Shown piece after piece: positions 3,375 through 20,657 of a stretch of 35,218 nucleotides of DNA; positions within the stretch are counted from its first letter, which is position 1; every line of letters starts with the position of its first letter. The stretch is from a virus. A program made the translations under genes and the position numbers. The stretch is taken from positions 1 through 35,218 of IMG/VR virus record IMGVR_UViG_3300009149_000134; one strand, written 5' to 3'. The notes below the pieces were generated by a model. It did no database searches. It worked only from the letters and a program-made list of their open reading frames with translations, and was not told the DNA's origin.

Positions 3375-3797
3375 TCATTTGAACATACAATCCTGTACTT
3401 CATTTTGAGACTTCTTAGAAGACTTCTTTTTTGTTTTCTTTTGGATCTTCTTGATTTCTTTTGCCTGTAGGTTTGCCTTCTCTATAATATCCTTGCTCTT
3501 TTCTTTTGCCTTATCAATGATATTATTCGCATCATCTAATAGGTCTTGAAAGCAAAACTCTATAAGATCTGTTTCGCATCTAGGACACTTACCATCTTTC
3601 ATGATCCCACCCTTCGCAATTAATTCTCCTTTTTGTTCTGGGAACCATTCACAATCTTTTCTAGTCTCTGTAAGTTTCTGACCACATCGAACGCAATGAC
3701 CAGACTTGAGAAAGTGTCTTCGCTTTACATAAATGCGCTTGATTTCTTTATCAGTAAGTCCAGGTGAATGTATTCTTTTATATTTATAGATAGACAT
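3375..3797 (-). CDS. Zinc-ribbon protein with basic coiled-coil tail (unknown)
   Basis: A 140-residue product. Cysteine pairs CVRCGQKL and CPRCETDL, plus further cysteines, suggest one or two zinc ribbons in the first 90 residues. The rest is a Lys-rich amphipathic helix ending with a KKTKKKSSKKSQ stretch, which would bind nucleic acid non-specifically. The ATG at 3797 overlaps the TGA of the upstream gene (TGATG), so translation is probably coupled. A GTG one codon earlier is the alternative start. The function is unknown; it is last in the minus-strand early-type operon. Confidence 0.8.
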   Translation of the reverse strand: MSIYKYKRIHSPGLTDKEIKRIYVKRRHFLKSGHCVRCGQKLTETRKDCEWFPEQKGELIAKGGIMKDGKCPRCETDLIEFCFQDLLDDANNIIDKAKEKSKDIIEKANLQAKEIKKIQKKTKKKSSKKSQNEVQDCMFK

Positions 3798-3970
3798 CAC
3801 AGTGAGTCCATTATTAGTTTAGATTCAAGATCTAATTCAAGATCAGAAGGTTGAGAAGAATGATTCAATAAAATTGATTTAATATTGATAAAATCATCAG
3901 TAGACATATCATACCCAGATGATTTTAGGTATTTTTTAATGGCAACCACAGCATCGTCAGAACTACTCAT
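3797..3970 (-). CDS. 57-residue protein (unknown)
   Basis: The ORF starts at ATG 3970 with AGAAGGAAGGTG upstream and stops at 3797-3799. The product begins MSSSDDAVVAIKKYLKSSGY, acidic and helical, with no cysteine or membrane segment. Its stop overlaps the next start by one base, a typical coupled arrangement of T4-like early genes. Confidence 0.75.
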   Translation of the reverse strand: MSSSDDAVVAIKKYLKSSGYDMSTDDFINIKSILLNHSSQPSDLELDLESKLIMDSL

Positions 3971-7896: not shown

Positions 7897-8181
7897 ATGC
7901 TAGGTTGGATTGGATCTTTACTTTTGAGTTTCTGTGGGATTCCACAAGCGATCAAATCGTATCGAACCAAACAAGCGGATGATCTATCATGGTTATTCTT
8001 AGGCATGTGGGGAGTTGGTGAAATCTTCACATTGATCTATGTGATACAGTCAAATATTATTTCTGGTATGTTTCAATATCCATTGATTATGAATTACACG
8101 TTGAATACTATAATTATTTGTTACTTGGTCTATGTAAAAATAAAATACTCAGGAGAGAATTATGAAAAATCTAAACGTTAA
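7897..8181 (+). CDS. PQ-loop / SemiSWEET-like membrane protein
   Basis: A 94-residue protein with three predicted membrane helices. The first carries the PQ-loop signature (GSLLLSFCGIPQAIKSYRTK followed by DDLSWLFLGMWGVGE). Bacterial SemiSWEETs of this size form dimers that move sugars or other small solutes across the inner membrane. TTGGAGGAATA precedes ATG 7897. It overlaps the next gene by 20 bases. The substrate is unknown; a role in metabolite import for phage growth is inference. Confidence 0.82.
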   Translation: MLGWIGSLLLSFCGIPQAIKSYRTKQADDLSWLFLGMWGVGEIFTLIYVIQSNIISGMFQYPLIMNYTLNTIIICYLVYVKIKYSGENYEKSKR

Positions 8182-9199
8182 TGAAAGAAGAGTTCTCACA
8201 GACATGCGTGAGAAGATAGAGAGTGAAGATCATGAACTTCTGTATCTGGTGCGCTTCGGATCTCATCTGTATGGTACGAATGGTCCAAACTCAGATGTTG
8301 ATTTCAAGGGAGTCTTTCTTCCTAGCATGAAGAGTTGTCTCTTGGGGAATGCTCCTAAGCATTTCACCTCTACTACAGGTGAGAGTGGTAGTAAGAACAG
8401 TAAGGATGATATAGACGTTCAACTATGGAGTCTCCAGTATTGGATGAGTCTTGTTGGTAAGGGTGAGACTAATGCGCTGGACCTACTGTATAGTTTTTCT
8501 AACCAGTCTGCGAGTGTGTATATGGATGATCGTATGCCAAATCTCTTCGCTAATCACAGCAAACTGTTTAATTCACATGATTGTAATTCATATGTTGGTT
8601 ACGCAATAGGTCAGGCACGGAAGTATGGAATCAAGGGTTCACGTTTGGGTGTCATGAAGAAAGTTATGGAATTCCTGGACCTCAATCATCTGGATGACTT
8701 CTGTCTAGGTATGTGTCTACGTGATGTAATCGAAGATCTTATCAAGAACTGTGGACAGGAGTCATATTGTTTTGTTAAGGATCTCAAGGGTGGTCACGAT
8801 GAAATGAAACCATATCTGTGTCTCTGTGGTGCCAAGCATGATCTAACAATAAGTCTTGAAGAATTCTACAGAAGAGTCAAGTCTGCTCATGATCATTACG
8901 GTAATCGTGCAAAGGCAGCAGAGGAGAGTGATGGTGTAGATTTCAAGGCACTGTCCCATGCACTAAGGGCACTTGATCAAATGTCAAGTCTTCTTATGTT
9001 TGGTAAGATAGATTATCCTCTACATACTGCTAATCATCTGAGGGATGTTAAGGAAGGTAAGTACACTTGGGCAGAGGTTGAACCTATGCTCCAGGACGGA
9101 CTGCATCAGGTTGAACATTTCCTTGAGATTTGCACACCAATAAACAAACTCGACAAGGAGTTTGTAGATAACGCTATTGTTGAATTTTTCTATAGTTAA
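8162..9199 (+). CDS. Pol-beta-superfamily nucleotidyltransferase
   Basis: A 345-residue protein whose N-terminus shows the nucleotidyltransferase active site: GSHLYG at 33-38, then NSDVDFKGVF with two catalytic acidic residues at 45 and 47. The rest is helical. It matches the family of stand-alone predicted nucleotidyltransferases (COG3541 type) found in many large phages. The reaction would be NMP transfer to RNA, protein or a small molecule; the substrate is unknown. It ends 19 bases before tmRNA and overlaps the PQ-loop gene. Confidence 0.85.
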   Translation: MKNLNVNERRVLTDMREKIESEDHELLYLVRFGSHLYGTNGPNSDVDFKGVFLPSMKSCLLGNAPKHFTSTTGESGSKNSKDDIDVQLWSLQYWMSLVGKGETNALDLLYSFSNQSASVYMDDRMPNLFANHSKLFNSHDCNSYVGYAIGQARKYGIKGSRLGVMKKVMEFLDLNHLDDFCLGMCLRDVIEDLIKNCGQESYCFVKDLKGGHDEMKPYLCLCGAKHDLTISLEEFYRRVKSAHDHYGNRAKAAEESDGVDFKALSHALRALDQMSSLLMFGKIDYPLHTANHLRDVKEGKYTWAEVEPMLQDGLHQVEHFLEICTPINKLDKEFVDNAIVEFFYS

Positions 9200-9218: not shown

Positions 9219-9567
9219 GTGGGTGAATGGTATCGACTGGAAGAGGGAAAACTGAACTGCATGTAGGTGAGGCAACCTTGGCACCTTAAAAATGGTTGTA
9301 CAAATTAATTAACGCAACACTAGCACTTGCTGCTTAAATAGCAGCACTCGAAATCTGTGAGGTGGACTAGTAGCAGAGAGTAGGGACAACACAAGTCCTG
9401 ACAAGAGGCAAAGACCCTTGACACTTGAAAAGACAAGTGCTATGATTCTAAAGAAGGGAATCTGCGGTCTTGTTGATCGACCAAGAGAAACAACAATCAA
9501 CTAAACATGTAGACGTTCTTTTGGATATCTTTTCAGGACGGGGGTTCGACTCCCCCCACCTACACCA
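9219..9567 (+). ncRNA. ssrA: tmRNA
   Basis: A 349-nt gene. The 5' GTGGGTG pairs with 3' CACCTAC (one G-U), followed by A and an encoded CCA. The 5' region has the tmRNA D-like signature TGGTATCGACTGG, and the 3' end has a canonical T arm (GGGGG TTCGACT CCCCC). A tag reading frame about 95 nt from the 5' end reads GCA ACA CTA GCA CTT GCT GCT TAA, giving a peptide that ends ALAA, the classical ClpXP/ClpAP degron end. The exact resume codon is uncertain (GCA 9314 or slightly upstream). It would rescue stalled ribosomes with SmpB, either from the host or elsewhere in the phage; no smpB is seen in this window. Confidence 0.95.
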
Positions 9568-13317: not shown

Positions 13318-13345
13318 TTGACTTGCTGAGAAATTGTGCTATAAT
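13318..13345 (+). promoter_or_regulatory. Sigma70-type promoter for a noncoding RNA
   Basis: TTGACT, 16 bases, TATAAT: strong consensus. No ORF follows; the transcript would be the structured RNA at about 13352-13723. The first transcribed bases (CTGAAGTAAGG) resemble those after the promoter at 17203. Confidence 0.88.
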
Positions 13346-13351
13346 AGTAAC

Positions 13352-13723
13352 ACTGAAGTAAGGAATGAGAAAAAACGTTTGGATGGAGGATAGCATCATG
13401 TGACCTTACTGAGTGTAGACGATAATACTGGATTAAGAACTAAACTTATCTGAGGAGTCGCTGAAAATTGCGACGAAACCCTTCTTCAATATTGTGGACG
13501 ACATCGCTCATATGTGTTAAAGAAGGGTCATAAGTAAAGTAAGGGAGGGACCGTGTGGACGTTGTACGTCGAATAGACTATGATCAACTTCACAACTATG
13601 TTCAGTCGGAACAAAAGATGTAAGACTGCAATCTTATGTCTACAAATTCCGAGACTCATGCAGGAGTATACGGAGATACGTAAAGTTGCAACGTCTTCGT
13701 CATAGTGGTCCCTTATATTTTTT
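13352..13723 (+). ncRNA. Long multi-hairpin noncoding RNA (unknown)
   Basis: No credible ORF, but regular secondary structure: AGTAAGG (13357) with CCTTACT (13404); GTCGC / GCGAC; CCCTTCTTCAA with TTAAAGAAGGG; GACG / CGTC; AGATGTAAGA with TCTTATGTCT (two G-U); and a closing GGGACC (13547) with GGTCCC (13707) followed by a T run that should terminate. It may be one RNA of about 370 nt or two tandem ones joined near 13530. It does not show the RNase P, 6S or SRP consensus elements that I know. Confidence 0.65.
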
Positions 13724-13737
13724 AAAAAAAAAAGTAG

Positions 13738-13766
13738 TTGACAAAGTAACTTCAATCATATATAAT
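13738..13766 (+). promoter_or_regulatory. Sigma70-type promoter
   Basis: TTGACA, 17 bases, TATAAT: full consensus. It drives the 37-codon ORF and attenuator-like leader. Confidence 0.9.
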
Positions 13767-15686: not shown

Positions 15687-15761
15687 TCCACGGTAGCTCA
15701 ATGATCGAGCGTTCGCCTGTTAAGCGAGAAGATGTTGGTTTGAATCCAACCTGTGGAGCCA
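15687..15761 (+). tRNA. tRNA-Asn(GTT), copy 2
   Basis: Acceptor TCCACGG / CTGTGGA, G73, CCA. Anticodon arm TTCGC CTGTTAA GCGAG. D-loop AATGATC (GA for GG) with T-loop TTTGAAT (T for C56). Confidence 0.9.
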
Positions 15762-16124: not shown

Positions 16125-16199
16125 GCTGCGTTAGTAGACTAGTGATCACGCCACTCTGATACAGTGGAGAAGATGGAGCGTTACCATCACGCAGTACCA
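16125..16199 (+). tRNA. tRNA-Ile(GAT)
   Basis: Acceptor GCTGCGT / ACGCAGT, A73, CCA. Anticodon arm CCACT CTGATAC AGTGG. D-loop contains CTAGTG rather than TGG and T-loop is AGCGTTA. Confidence 0.87.
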
Positions 16200-16293
16200 A
16201 TTTTGACGCGAGAGACTTGGGTTTGAATCCCAACCTGTAGCAACGGTGTTGTACGGGATCGTCTAGTGATAGGATACTCGCGTATTTGTTTTT
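16200..16293 (+). ncRNA. Candidate permuted tRNA (3' half before 5' half), no. 1
   Basis: GCGAG (16208-16212), then a T arm TTGGG TTTGAAT CCCAA and CCTGTA (16234-16239); a 12-nt linker; then TACGGG (16252-16257), a D arm GTCTAGTGATAGGATA, and CTCGC (16277-16281). TACGGG pairs with CCTGTA and CTCGC with GCGAG (CTCGCG / CGCGAG is 6 bp), so the two parts fold as one tRNA with an open anticodon loop. The boundaries are exactly those that processing of the flanking tRNAs would release. A recombination relic is the alternative. Confidence 0.55.
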
Positions 16294-16371
16294 TGTGAAG
16301 TCGTCTAAAAACACAGGACGCTCCTGTAGCACGGGAGAAATGATGGCGTAGTGTCCCATCCTTCGCGACCA
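16294..16371 (+). tRNA. Elbow-less tRNA-like gene (anticodon loop GTAGCAC)
   Basis: Acceptor TGTGAAG / CTTCGCG, A73, CCA; D stem GTC/GAC; anticodon stem CTCCT / GGGAG. If standard, the anticodon is AGC (Ala). The D-loop has no GG and the T-loop is nine bases, CGTAGTGTC. Charging identity is uncertain. Confidence 0.65.
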
Positions 16372-16379
16372 TATTATAT

Positions 16380-16457
16380 CGGGAAGTAGTTCAAAATCTA
16401 GAACAGCTCTCACCTGGGAGAGAAGACGATGGGTATAATGTCCATCCTACCCGACCA
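16380..16457 (+). tRNA. Elbow-less tRNA-like gene (Pro-like?)
   Basis: Acceptor CGGGAAG / CTACCCG with one mismatch, A73, CCA; D stem GTTC / GAAC with loop AAAATCTA; anticodon stem CTCTC / GAGAG around a six-base loop ACCTGG. T-loop nine bases, GTATAATGT. The C1-G72 pair and TGG hint at Pro, but the loop is abnormal. Confidence 0.6.
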
Positions 16458-17202: not shown

Positions 17203-17230
17203 TTGACTTCGTTTGAATTTATGGTATAAT
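17203..17230 (+). promoter_or_regulatory. Sigma70-type promoter
   Basis: TTGACT, 16 bases, TATAAT, followed by AGTAACAATGAAGTAAGGG, very like the start of the noncoding RNA at 13352. A leader of about 80 nt with a short hairpin (GAGGT / ACCTC) precedes the next gene. Confidence 0.87.
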
Positions 17231-18104: not shown

Positions 18105-18182
18105 GGTCCTGTATCCCAACTGGCAGAGGAGACACGTTTAGACCGTGTTAATGTAAGGGTTCGACTCCCTTCAGGACTACCA
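18105..18182 (+). tRNA. tRNA-Leu(TAG), short variable arm
   Basis: Acceptor GGTCCTG / CAGGACT, A73, CCA. Anticodon arm ACACG TTTAGAC CGTGT; variable region TAATGT. It reads CTA/CTN leucine codons and is not a stop suppressor. Confidence 0.88.
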
Positions 18183-18358
18183 AATATTCGCGAGAGATGC
18201 TGGTTCAAGTCCAGCAAGGATGTAGCGCATGTAAATGCACTTTTACCAGATGCGTCTTCTTTGAATTCGAAGTGCTCGATCCACCTGCGGGGGGATTGAT
18301 CGAAATCAAAAAAGAAGATCCGAATCGTCTAAAGGTAGGACACTCGCACTATTATTAT
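18183..18358 (+). ncRNA. Candidate permuted tRNA, no. 2
   Basis: GCGAG (18190-18194), T arm GCTGG TTCAAGT CCAGC and GGAT come first. After about 96 nt with hairpins (GCAT GTAA ATGC; TCTTCTTT / AAAGAAGA) follow ATCC (18318-18321), D arm GTCTAAAGGTAGGACA and CTCGC (18343-18347). Anticodon-stem halves match; only four acceptor pairs form. It has the same layout as the 16200-16293 element, again exactly between two tRNAs. Confidence 0.45.
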
Positions 18359-18434
18359 GCTCCTGTAGTCTAATAGGATAGGCATCGGTCTTCTAAACCG
18401 AACCATGCAGGTTCGAATCCTGTCAGGAGTGCCA
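18359..18434 (+). tRNA. tRNA-Arg(TCT)
   Basis: Acceptor GCTCCTG / CAGGAGT, G73, CCA. Anticodon arm TCGGT CTTCTAA ACCGA. It reads AGA/AGG. Confidence 0.92.
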
Positions 18435-18519: not shown

Positions 18520-18523
18520 AAAT

Positions 18524-18651
18524 TGTGTTGCTGTGTAGAGCGATAAGTAGATTATATTGTGGGGCGCACATGGTATAGTCGGTAGTTGCTTATCCAATAG
18601 GTGGGAGAGTTGAATCTAACTCGCAAGTGAAAGACCACTCGAAACAACACA
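18524..18651 (+). ncRNA. 128-nt structured RNA in the tRNA array (unknown)
   Basis: TGTGTTG pairs with CAACACA at the ends. Inside are CTTAT CCA ATAGG, GAGTT GAATCT AACTC and AGTG / CACT hairpins. It has standard tRNA-type spacers on both sides but no T-loop, anticodon loop or CCA. Confidence 0.55.
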
Positions 18652-18663
18652 TTAAAATTAAAT

Positions 18664-18927: not shown

Positions 18928-19002
18928 TACCCCGTAGTGTAATTGGCAACACAGGAGATTTTGATTCTCCTATTACAGGATCGTACCCTGTCGGGGTATC
19001 CA
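18928..19002 (+). tRNA. tRNA-Gln(TTG)
   Basis: Perfect acceptor TACCCCG / CGGGGTA, T73, CCA. Anticodon arm GGAGA TTTTGAT TCTCC; T-loop ATCGTAC. Confidence 0.92.
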
Positions 19003-20583: not shown

Positions 20584-20657
20584 GCGTCTATGGTGTAATG
20601 ATAGCATAAAAGATTTCCAATCTTTTGGTGAGGGTTTGAATCCCTCTAGACGCTCCA
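20584..20657 (+). tRNA. tRNA-Gly(TCC)
   Basis: Perfect acceptor GCGTCTA / TAGACGC, T73, CCA. Anticodon arm AAAGA TTTCCAA TCTTT. D-loop has TGA instead of TGG, and T-loop TTTGAAT has T56. Confidence 0.92.

Follow-up and report, generated by a model that had tools for sequence, protein, structure and literature searches.

Between two genes of a phage tRNA array, the 3' half of a tRNA was found ahead of the 5' half, and the question arises whether this order denotes a circularly permuted tRNA gene, a remnant of recombination, or an RNA of another kind. The stretch, named element 1 here, is located in a 35,218-bp virus fragment (the window), from which 30 tRNAs were predicted by ARAGORN. The terminase of the fragment is of the T4 type and shows 33-36% identity to jumbo-phage terminases, e.g. 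those of Klebsiella phage RaK2 and Synechococcus phage B23. Close relatives of the fragment come from metagenome 3300009149. Relatives were recovered by NAMPT, TerL, RlaP and cytidyltransferase protein queries, and the close ones stop short of the tRNA array. The ordinary tRNAs of the array have CCA encoded. Several of them (e.g. 15687-15761 and 20584-20657) combine U56 in the T loop (TTTGAAT) with A19 in the D loop, a covarying alternative to the common G19-C56 pair. At 16294-16374 and 16379-16457 (+), two tRNA-like genes that include CCA fold into cloverleafs with odd T loops (GATGGCGTAGTGTCCCATC and GATGGGTATAATGTCCATC) and were missed by ARAGORN.

In the core of element 1 (16208-16281), the T arm is followed by a closed acceptor hairpin and then by the D arm, and the strands on either side match each other as an anticodon-stem helix. 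This is the order of a circularly permuted tRNA. The parts listed by the first-pass annotation between tRNA-Ile and the next tRNA were all recovered at their places (Table 1), and so was the proposed contact between the D and T loops, as a match of A19 and U56. The variable region, AGAC, lies between GCGAG and the T arm. The acceptor strands CCTGTA (16234-16239) and TACGGG (16252-16257) are separated by a 12-nt linker, GCAACGGTGTTG (16240-16251), which pairs with itself (CAAC/GTTG with a GGT loop) and lengthens the acceptor stem into the closed hairpin CCTGTAGCAACGGTGTTGTACGGG. CCA, which the array's ordinary tRNAs possess, is absent from this hairpin and its linker. For 16200-16293, RNAfold gives the permuted cloverleaf as the minimum-energy structure, and its helix on the anticodon side has 7 bp. 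The closure of the acceptor by the linker was missing from the first-pass annotation, as was a second copy, element 2.

Table 1. Positions of the two permuted elements and of associated genes in the window.
Feature	Position	Strand	Description
RlaP-type RNA-repair nucleotidyltransferase	8162-9199	+	T4 NrdC.11 family; immediately 5' of tmRNA
tmRNA	9219-9567		One-piece, ordinary
tRNA-Ile(gat)	16125-16199	+	CCA adjoins element 1
Element 1	16200-16293	+	94 nt, from tRNA-Ile CCA to next tRNA-like gene; putative RNA ends
Element 1, anticodon-position helix, 3' strand	16206-16212	+	ACGCGAG by fold; 5-bp core GCGAG 16208-16212
Element 1, T arm	16217-16233	+	TTGGG-TTTGAAT-CCCAA; U56 in loop
Element 1, capped acceptor hairpin	16234-16257	+	CCTGTA-G-CAAC-GGT-GTTG-TACGGG; CCA absent
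Element 1, D arm	16261-16275	+	GTCT-AGTGATA-GGAT; A19 fits U56
Element 1, anticodon-position helix, 5' strand	16277-16283	+	CTCGCGT; 5-bp core CTCGC 16277-16281
tRNA-like gene	16294-16374	+	Unannotated, odd T loop; downstream border of element 1
Element 2	18183-18358	+	Permuted tRNA-like element, from tRNA-Leu CCA to tRNA-Arg; fold z -3.05
Element 2, 3' part	18190-18221	+	GCGAG, variable AGAT, T arm GCTGG-TTCAAGT-CCAGC, then AAGGAT
Element 2, insertion	18222-18317	+	Structured, 96 nt; replaces short acceptor cap
Element 2, 5' part	18318-18347	+	ATCC, D arm GTCT-AAAGGTA-GGAC (G19 fits C56), CTCGC

Other RNA features were observed in the window as well. A hammerhead-ribozyme-like RNA at 13444-13535 (+; fold z of -3.8) displays stem I ACTTAT/ATAAGT, the core CTGAGGA, stem II GTCGC/GCGAC, GAAA and stem III CCCTTCTT/AAGAAGGG, with a predicted cleavage after GGGTC; it was not reported by the Rfam scan. 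Strong sigma-70-like promoters at 13318-13345, 13738-13766 and 17203-17230 (+) precede noncoding stretches and the tRNA array. Two of these sites read TTGACT-16-TATAAT with an extended -10 and one is a perfect TTGACA-17-TATAAT, and the following text AGTAACA(A/C)TGAAGTAAGG is common to two of the three. A structured noncoding stretch at 18520-18658 (+; fold z of -2.4) is closed by the stem TGTGTTG/CAACACA.

Element 1 is set apart from chance by its pairing specificity and not by its fold energy, which is not significant (z of -1.67; 17 of 200 shuffles are as stable). When non-cognate halves were joined from the tRNAs in hand, 2 of the 1260 combinations matched the 6 acceptor and 5 anticodon-stem pairs of element 1, which corroborates the early impression that the halves fit each other. 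A chance junction of unrelated tRNAs was rejected on this specificity. Element 1 was also top in the window, with a score of 49, in a relaxed scan for a T arm, an acceptor hairpin and a D arm with ordinary tRNAs excluded. The same scan gave nothing at a score of 36 or above when the 9-kb array was shuffled 30 times, and no matches in the tandem tRNA arrays of three phages without Ro60. As a DNA similarity query, element 1 found no match among phage records, and exact and loosened tRNA-element patterns run over viral contigs retrieved no copy of it.

Element 2 (core 18190-18347) is a divergent copy located between the CCA of tRNA-Leu at 18182 and tRNA-Arg, which begins at 18359. It keeps the 5-bp T arm and the D arm, its acceptor is degenerate with a 4-bp remnant (ATCC/GGAT), and the CTCGC/GCGAG stem is identical in the two elements. 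The spacers to the neighbouring tRNAs are 7 and 11 nt for element 2, and 8 and 12 nt for element 1. At the tertiary pair 19-56, element 1 has A/U and element 2 has G/C, and the D stems show a compensating difference of G-U versus G-C. The 5' halves of the two elements are 73% identical, a value reached by 1.8% of ordinary pairs, and the 3' halves are 67% identical (7.8% of ordinary pairs); common descent is therefore suggested, though not proved, by these sequences. It was also considered whether the two elements are parts of one tRNA interrupted by a long intron, and this was rejected, as the acceptors mismatch.

The covariance model R1 was built from 13 artificially permuted ordinary tRNAs, with neither window copy in training. 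R1 also scores ordinary tandem tRNA junctions, and so does R2, which gave 43.7 bits at such a junction versus 31.2 at element 1. The scores of R1 and R2 alone do not prove the class of element 1. As ordinary tandem arrays score too, the E-values of R1 were discarded as proof, and the model was used only where the neighbours were not tRNAs or the stems had been checked. In 10 of the 17 bacterial Ro60 (TROVE) loci, R1 matches precede the Ro60 gene by 60-420 nt. R1 matches were also found between ordinary genes in four TROVE/Ro60-encoding phages, namely G002 (IMGVR_UViG_3300008255_000097), Rhodococcus phage Trina, Sinorhizobium phage Phosso and Microbacterium phage Zooman. In Trina, the gene for the Ro60 RNA-binding protein follows 82 nt after one match. 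TROVE/Ro60 was not found in G001 (IMGVR_UViG_3300043344_000002), G003-G005, phiCbK, Aeromonas phage 65 and phage B23. The Rfam YrlA model weakly marks the R1 spots in Trina and Zooman. The phage YrlA candidates beside Ro60 reach 24-30 bits, versus a cut-off of 69, for RF02553, the Rfam family of the YrlA bacterial Y RNA (Chen et al. 2014; Wang et al. 2018). In the aligned natural set, 93.6% of the cells are paired, double changes occur at 19 of 21 pairs and all four helices covary, in an alignment fitted to the permuted structure whose slid controls drop to 37-48% paired. From the R1 matches upstream of Ro60, the Rfam YrlA marks and the covariation, we conclude that the Ro60-adjoining permuted tRNA-like RNAs with the order T arm, acceptor, D arm are YrlA Y RNAs.

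Permuted elements were further found in phage G001, which was reached by one loosened pattern and encodes two permuted tRNA-like RNAs with 7-8-bp acceptors together with an RtcB ligase. Splicing by RtcB was abandoned as an overall account of G001, since U33 is not obtained there with any choice of splice points. G002, a distant relative, carries two elements whose common conserved flanks can pair with compensatory changes, as judged partly by inspection. In the relaxed scan, an exact pairing of 5-7 bp at the anticodon position beside the arms was found in both window copies and G001, and in none of the Ro60-linked set. The D arm of element 1, TCGTCTAGTGATAGGAT, is almost the same as that of the YrlA-like RNA of Phosso, TCGTCTAGTGGTTAGGAC. 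The view of the first-pass annotation that such RNAs are unknown in phages is not supported: bacterial and phage Y RNAs (YrlA) are known to be built in this order. A search of related phages was suggested by it; G001, G002, Trina, Phosso and Zooman display the order, no copy of element 1 itself was found in viral contigs, and the close relatives end before the array.

Some further observations were made in these genomes. A permuted tRNA-like element is present in the Caulobacter phage phiCbK (104145-104216, equal to L078 1146-1217, +), which has RtcB and gave no Ro60 match. In G001, a tRNA-like gene (L027 about 3760-3855, -) possesses a 25-nt anticodon loop with its own hairpin, and U33 is absent. 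Clusters of Y RNA-like units lie upstream of Ro60 in Trina and Zooman (L075 1300-2560, +, and L079 16590-18080, +), with repeated CCGA..CGGTTATC and AACATGTTC flanks.

Elements 1 and 2 are built like the tRNA-mimic module of YrlA: element 1 contains the permuted tRNA-like module, and element 2 has the T and D arms and the stem with four acceptor pairs. They are not classed as YrlA because they failed the tests for the basal stem with its motif and for RF02553. The Ro60-binding motif CCGA..GGTTAT, which is present at the Ro60-linked RNAs of Trina, Zooman and bacteria, is absent at both window copies, as is the long basal stem; the sole match of the motif in the window lies within an ORF and is at chance level. 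Rfam gave no RF02553 match at 16200-16293 or 18183-18358, and no Ro60 (TROVE) gene was found within the 35-kb fragment.

The order of the arms, their pairing, the elbow contacts, the match to the Ro60-linked architecture and the placement between mature tRNA ends have all been shown. Our favoured reading, to which we give a probability of about 0.5, is that both elements represent small RNAs that mimic tRNA by a YrlA-like module, are excised from the phage tRNA array and do not decode. Element 1 comes closest to the tRNA-like part of bacterial Y RNAs, and is therefore probably a reduced and unusual mimic rather than the first example of a permuted tRNA gene in a phage. Both elements may be transcribed together with the array; no own promoter stands out beside element 1. 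RNase P and the 3' processing of the neighbouring tRNAs would then free them with no need of promoters of their own, and release in this way, as originally proposed, appears likely. The freed RNAs would fold into a tRNA elbow, and the closed acceptor would block charging, so that they may act as mimics and not in decoding. Putative partners are tRNA-handling proteins, such as modifying enzymes, PNPase-like effectors or, with the mimics serving as decoys, anticodon nucleases. The decoy role, first raised as a speculation, conforms to the published proposal that YrlA is a competitive inhibitor against an anticodon nuclease (PMC7790460). We are doubtful of the bolder claim that this is a duplicated, Ro60-independent permuted mimic in a tRNA operon acting as an anticodon-nuclease decoy or, in the strongest form, a functional permuted tRNA gene.

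The main rival to the mimic reading is a functionless recombination relic, that is, a tandem tRNA duplicate without its outer halves, which leaves a 3' half, a spacer and a 5' half that still pair because both derive from one tRNA. Tandem arrays do recombine, and the half-to-half spacing is that of a normal array. The acceptor of element 2 is degenerate. Element 1 and tRNA-Asn (15687) share 78% identity in their 3' halves, more than any of the 435 ordinary pairs, but the 5' half of element 1 is unlike tRNA-Asn. It also speaks against a relic that both copies break at the anticodon position with the same stem and with D and T arms retained, and that the differences between them at 19/56 and in the D stem are compensating. 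The extra acceptor-closing pairs CAAC/GTTG are not needed by a relic either. We regard this origin as unlikely, though it has to be taken seriously.

A permuted tRNA that is spliced and functional ranks below the relic in likelihood, and we consider it improbable. In this case, the anticodon ends of the freed RNA would be ligated by a phage RNA ligase and the linker removed by RNase P and 3' trimming, to give a decoding tRNA. In cloverleafs assembled from the halves, the stems of element 1 pair with a 6-bp acceptor, and its loop could read UUUUGAC (anticodon UUG, Gln), whereas element 2 fails on the acceptor and U33. The U1-A72 pair and G73 of element 1 suit Gln, and the tRNA-Gln loop of phage T4, CUUUGAC, resembles the UUUUGAC at the start of the 3' part. 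The RlaP nucleotidyltransferase near the tmRNA, and RtcB ligase in other phages carrying such elements, would also be in keeping with this reading. However, CCA is missing though encoded by the ordinary tRNAs of the array, an ordinary tRNA-Gln(UUG) already exists at 18928, U33 is found in no junction of element 2 or the G001 elements, and the linker hairpin stabilises the uncut form. We know of no bacterial enzyme pair for such splicing. The initial assignment to permuted tRNA genes of the algal and archaeal type is not supported; the capped acceptor, the lack of CCA and the inconsistent anticodon loop across the copies argue against a tRNA that decodes. Two-piece tmRNA genes likewise put the 3' acceptor part ahead of the 5' part, but identity of the element with such a tmRNA or a part of one is most improbable and was rejected, as an ordinary one-piece tmRNA is present, the D arm of the element is complete and no space is left between the flanking tRNAs for a tag-coding and pseudoknot domain.

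Permuted tRNA-like RNAs of the Y RNA type are thus a repeated feature of phages rich in tRNAs, frequently alongside Ro60 or RtcB ligase, and escape tRNA finders. If expressed, the stripped copy in a tRNA operon would part the tRNA-mimic function of Y RNA from Ro60, and would allow a direct test of the proposed decoy role in the conflict between phage and anticodon nuclease.

Among known systems, bacterial Y RNA can be superposed on tRNA if a circular permutation is allowed for (PMC11472068). YrlA imitates the acceptor arm as well as the D and T arms, serves as substrate for both DusA and TruB, and binds Rsr/Ro60 by its basal stem (PMC8394870); the rsr-yrlBA-rtcBA operon ties Ro60, Y RNA and RtcB together (PMC7790460). 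Element 1 shares with YrlA the permuted order of T arm, capped acceptor and D arm and the lack of a free CCA, both window copies share the tRNA elbow contacts, and YrlA is also known in phages beside tRNAs. In the structure of Wang et al. 2018 (PDB 6CU1), the acceptor stem of YrlA is reportedly closed by a loop, with the free CCA end absent. The window copies differ from YrlA in that the basal Ro60-binding stem and motif are missing, a short helix of tRNA size occupies the anticodon position, and they lie directly between tRNAs with array spacers as borders.

Circularly permuted tRNA genes have been described in red and green algae and in Thermofilum (PMC3978253, PMC3218864). The window copies resemble these genes in the leading 3' half, the break in the anticodon loop and the short acceptor linker, but they show no consistent anticodon or U33 and no CCA, and their linker is a hairpin cap. 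To our knowledge, the bacterial host has no tRNA-splicing endonuclease of the kind known from archaea and eukaryotes. The elements of G001 and G002, like the window copies, are permuted tRNA-like modules in or near phage tRNA genes, and those of G001 share the exact pairing at the anticodon position with elements 1 and 2. They differ in their perfect or near-perfect acceptors of 6-8 bp, the CCA encoded in three of the four, the longer outer helices formed from the flanks, and the presence of Ro60 in G002 and RtcB in G001.
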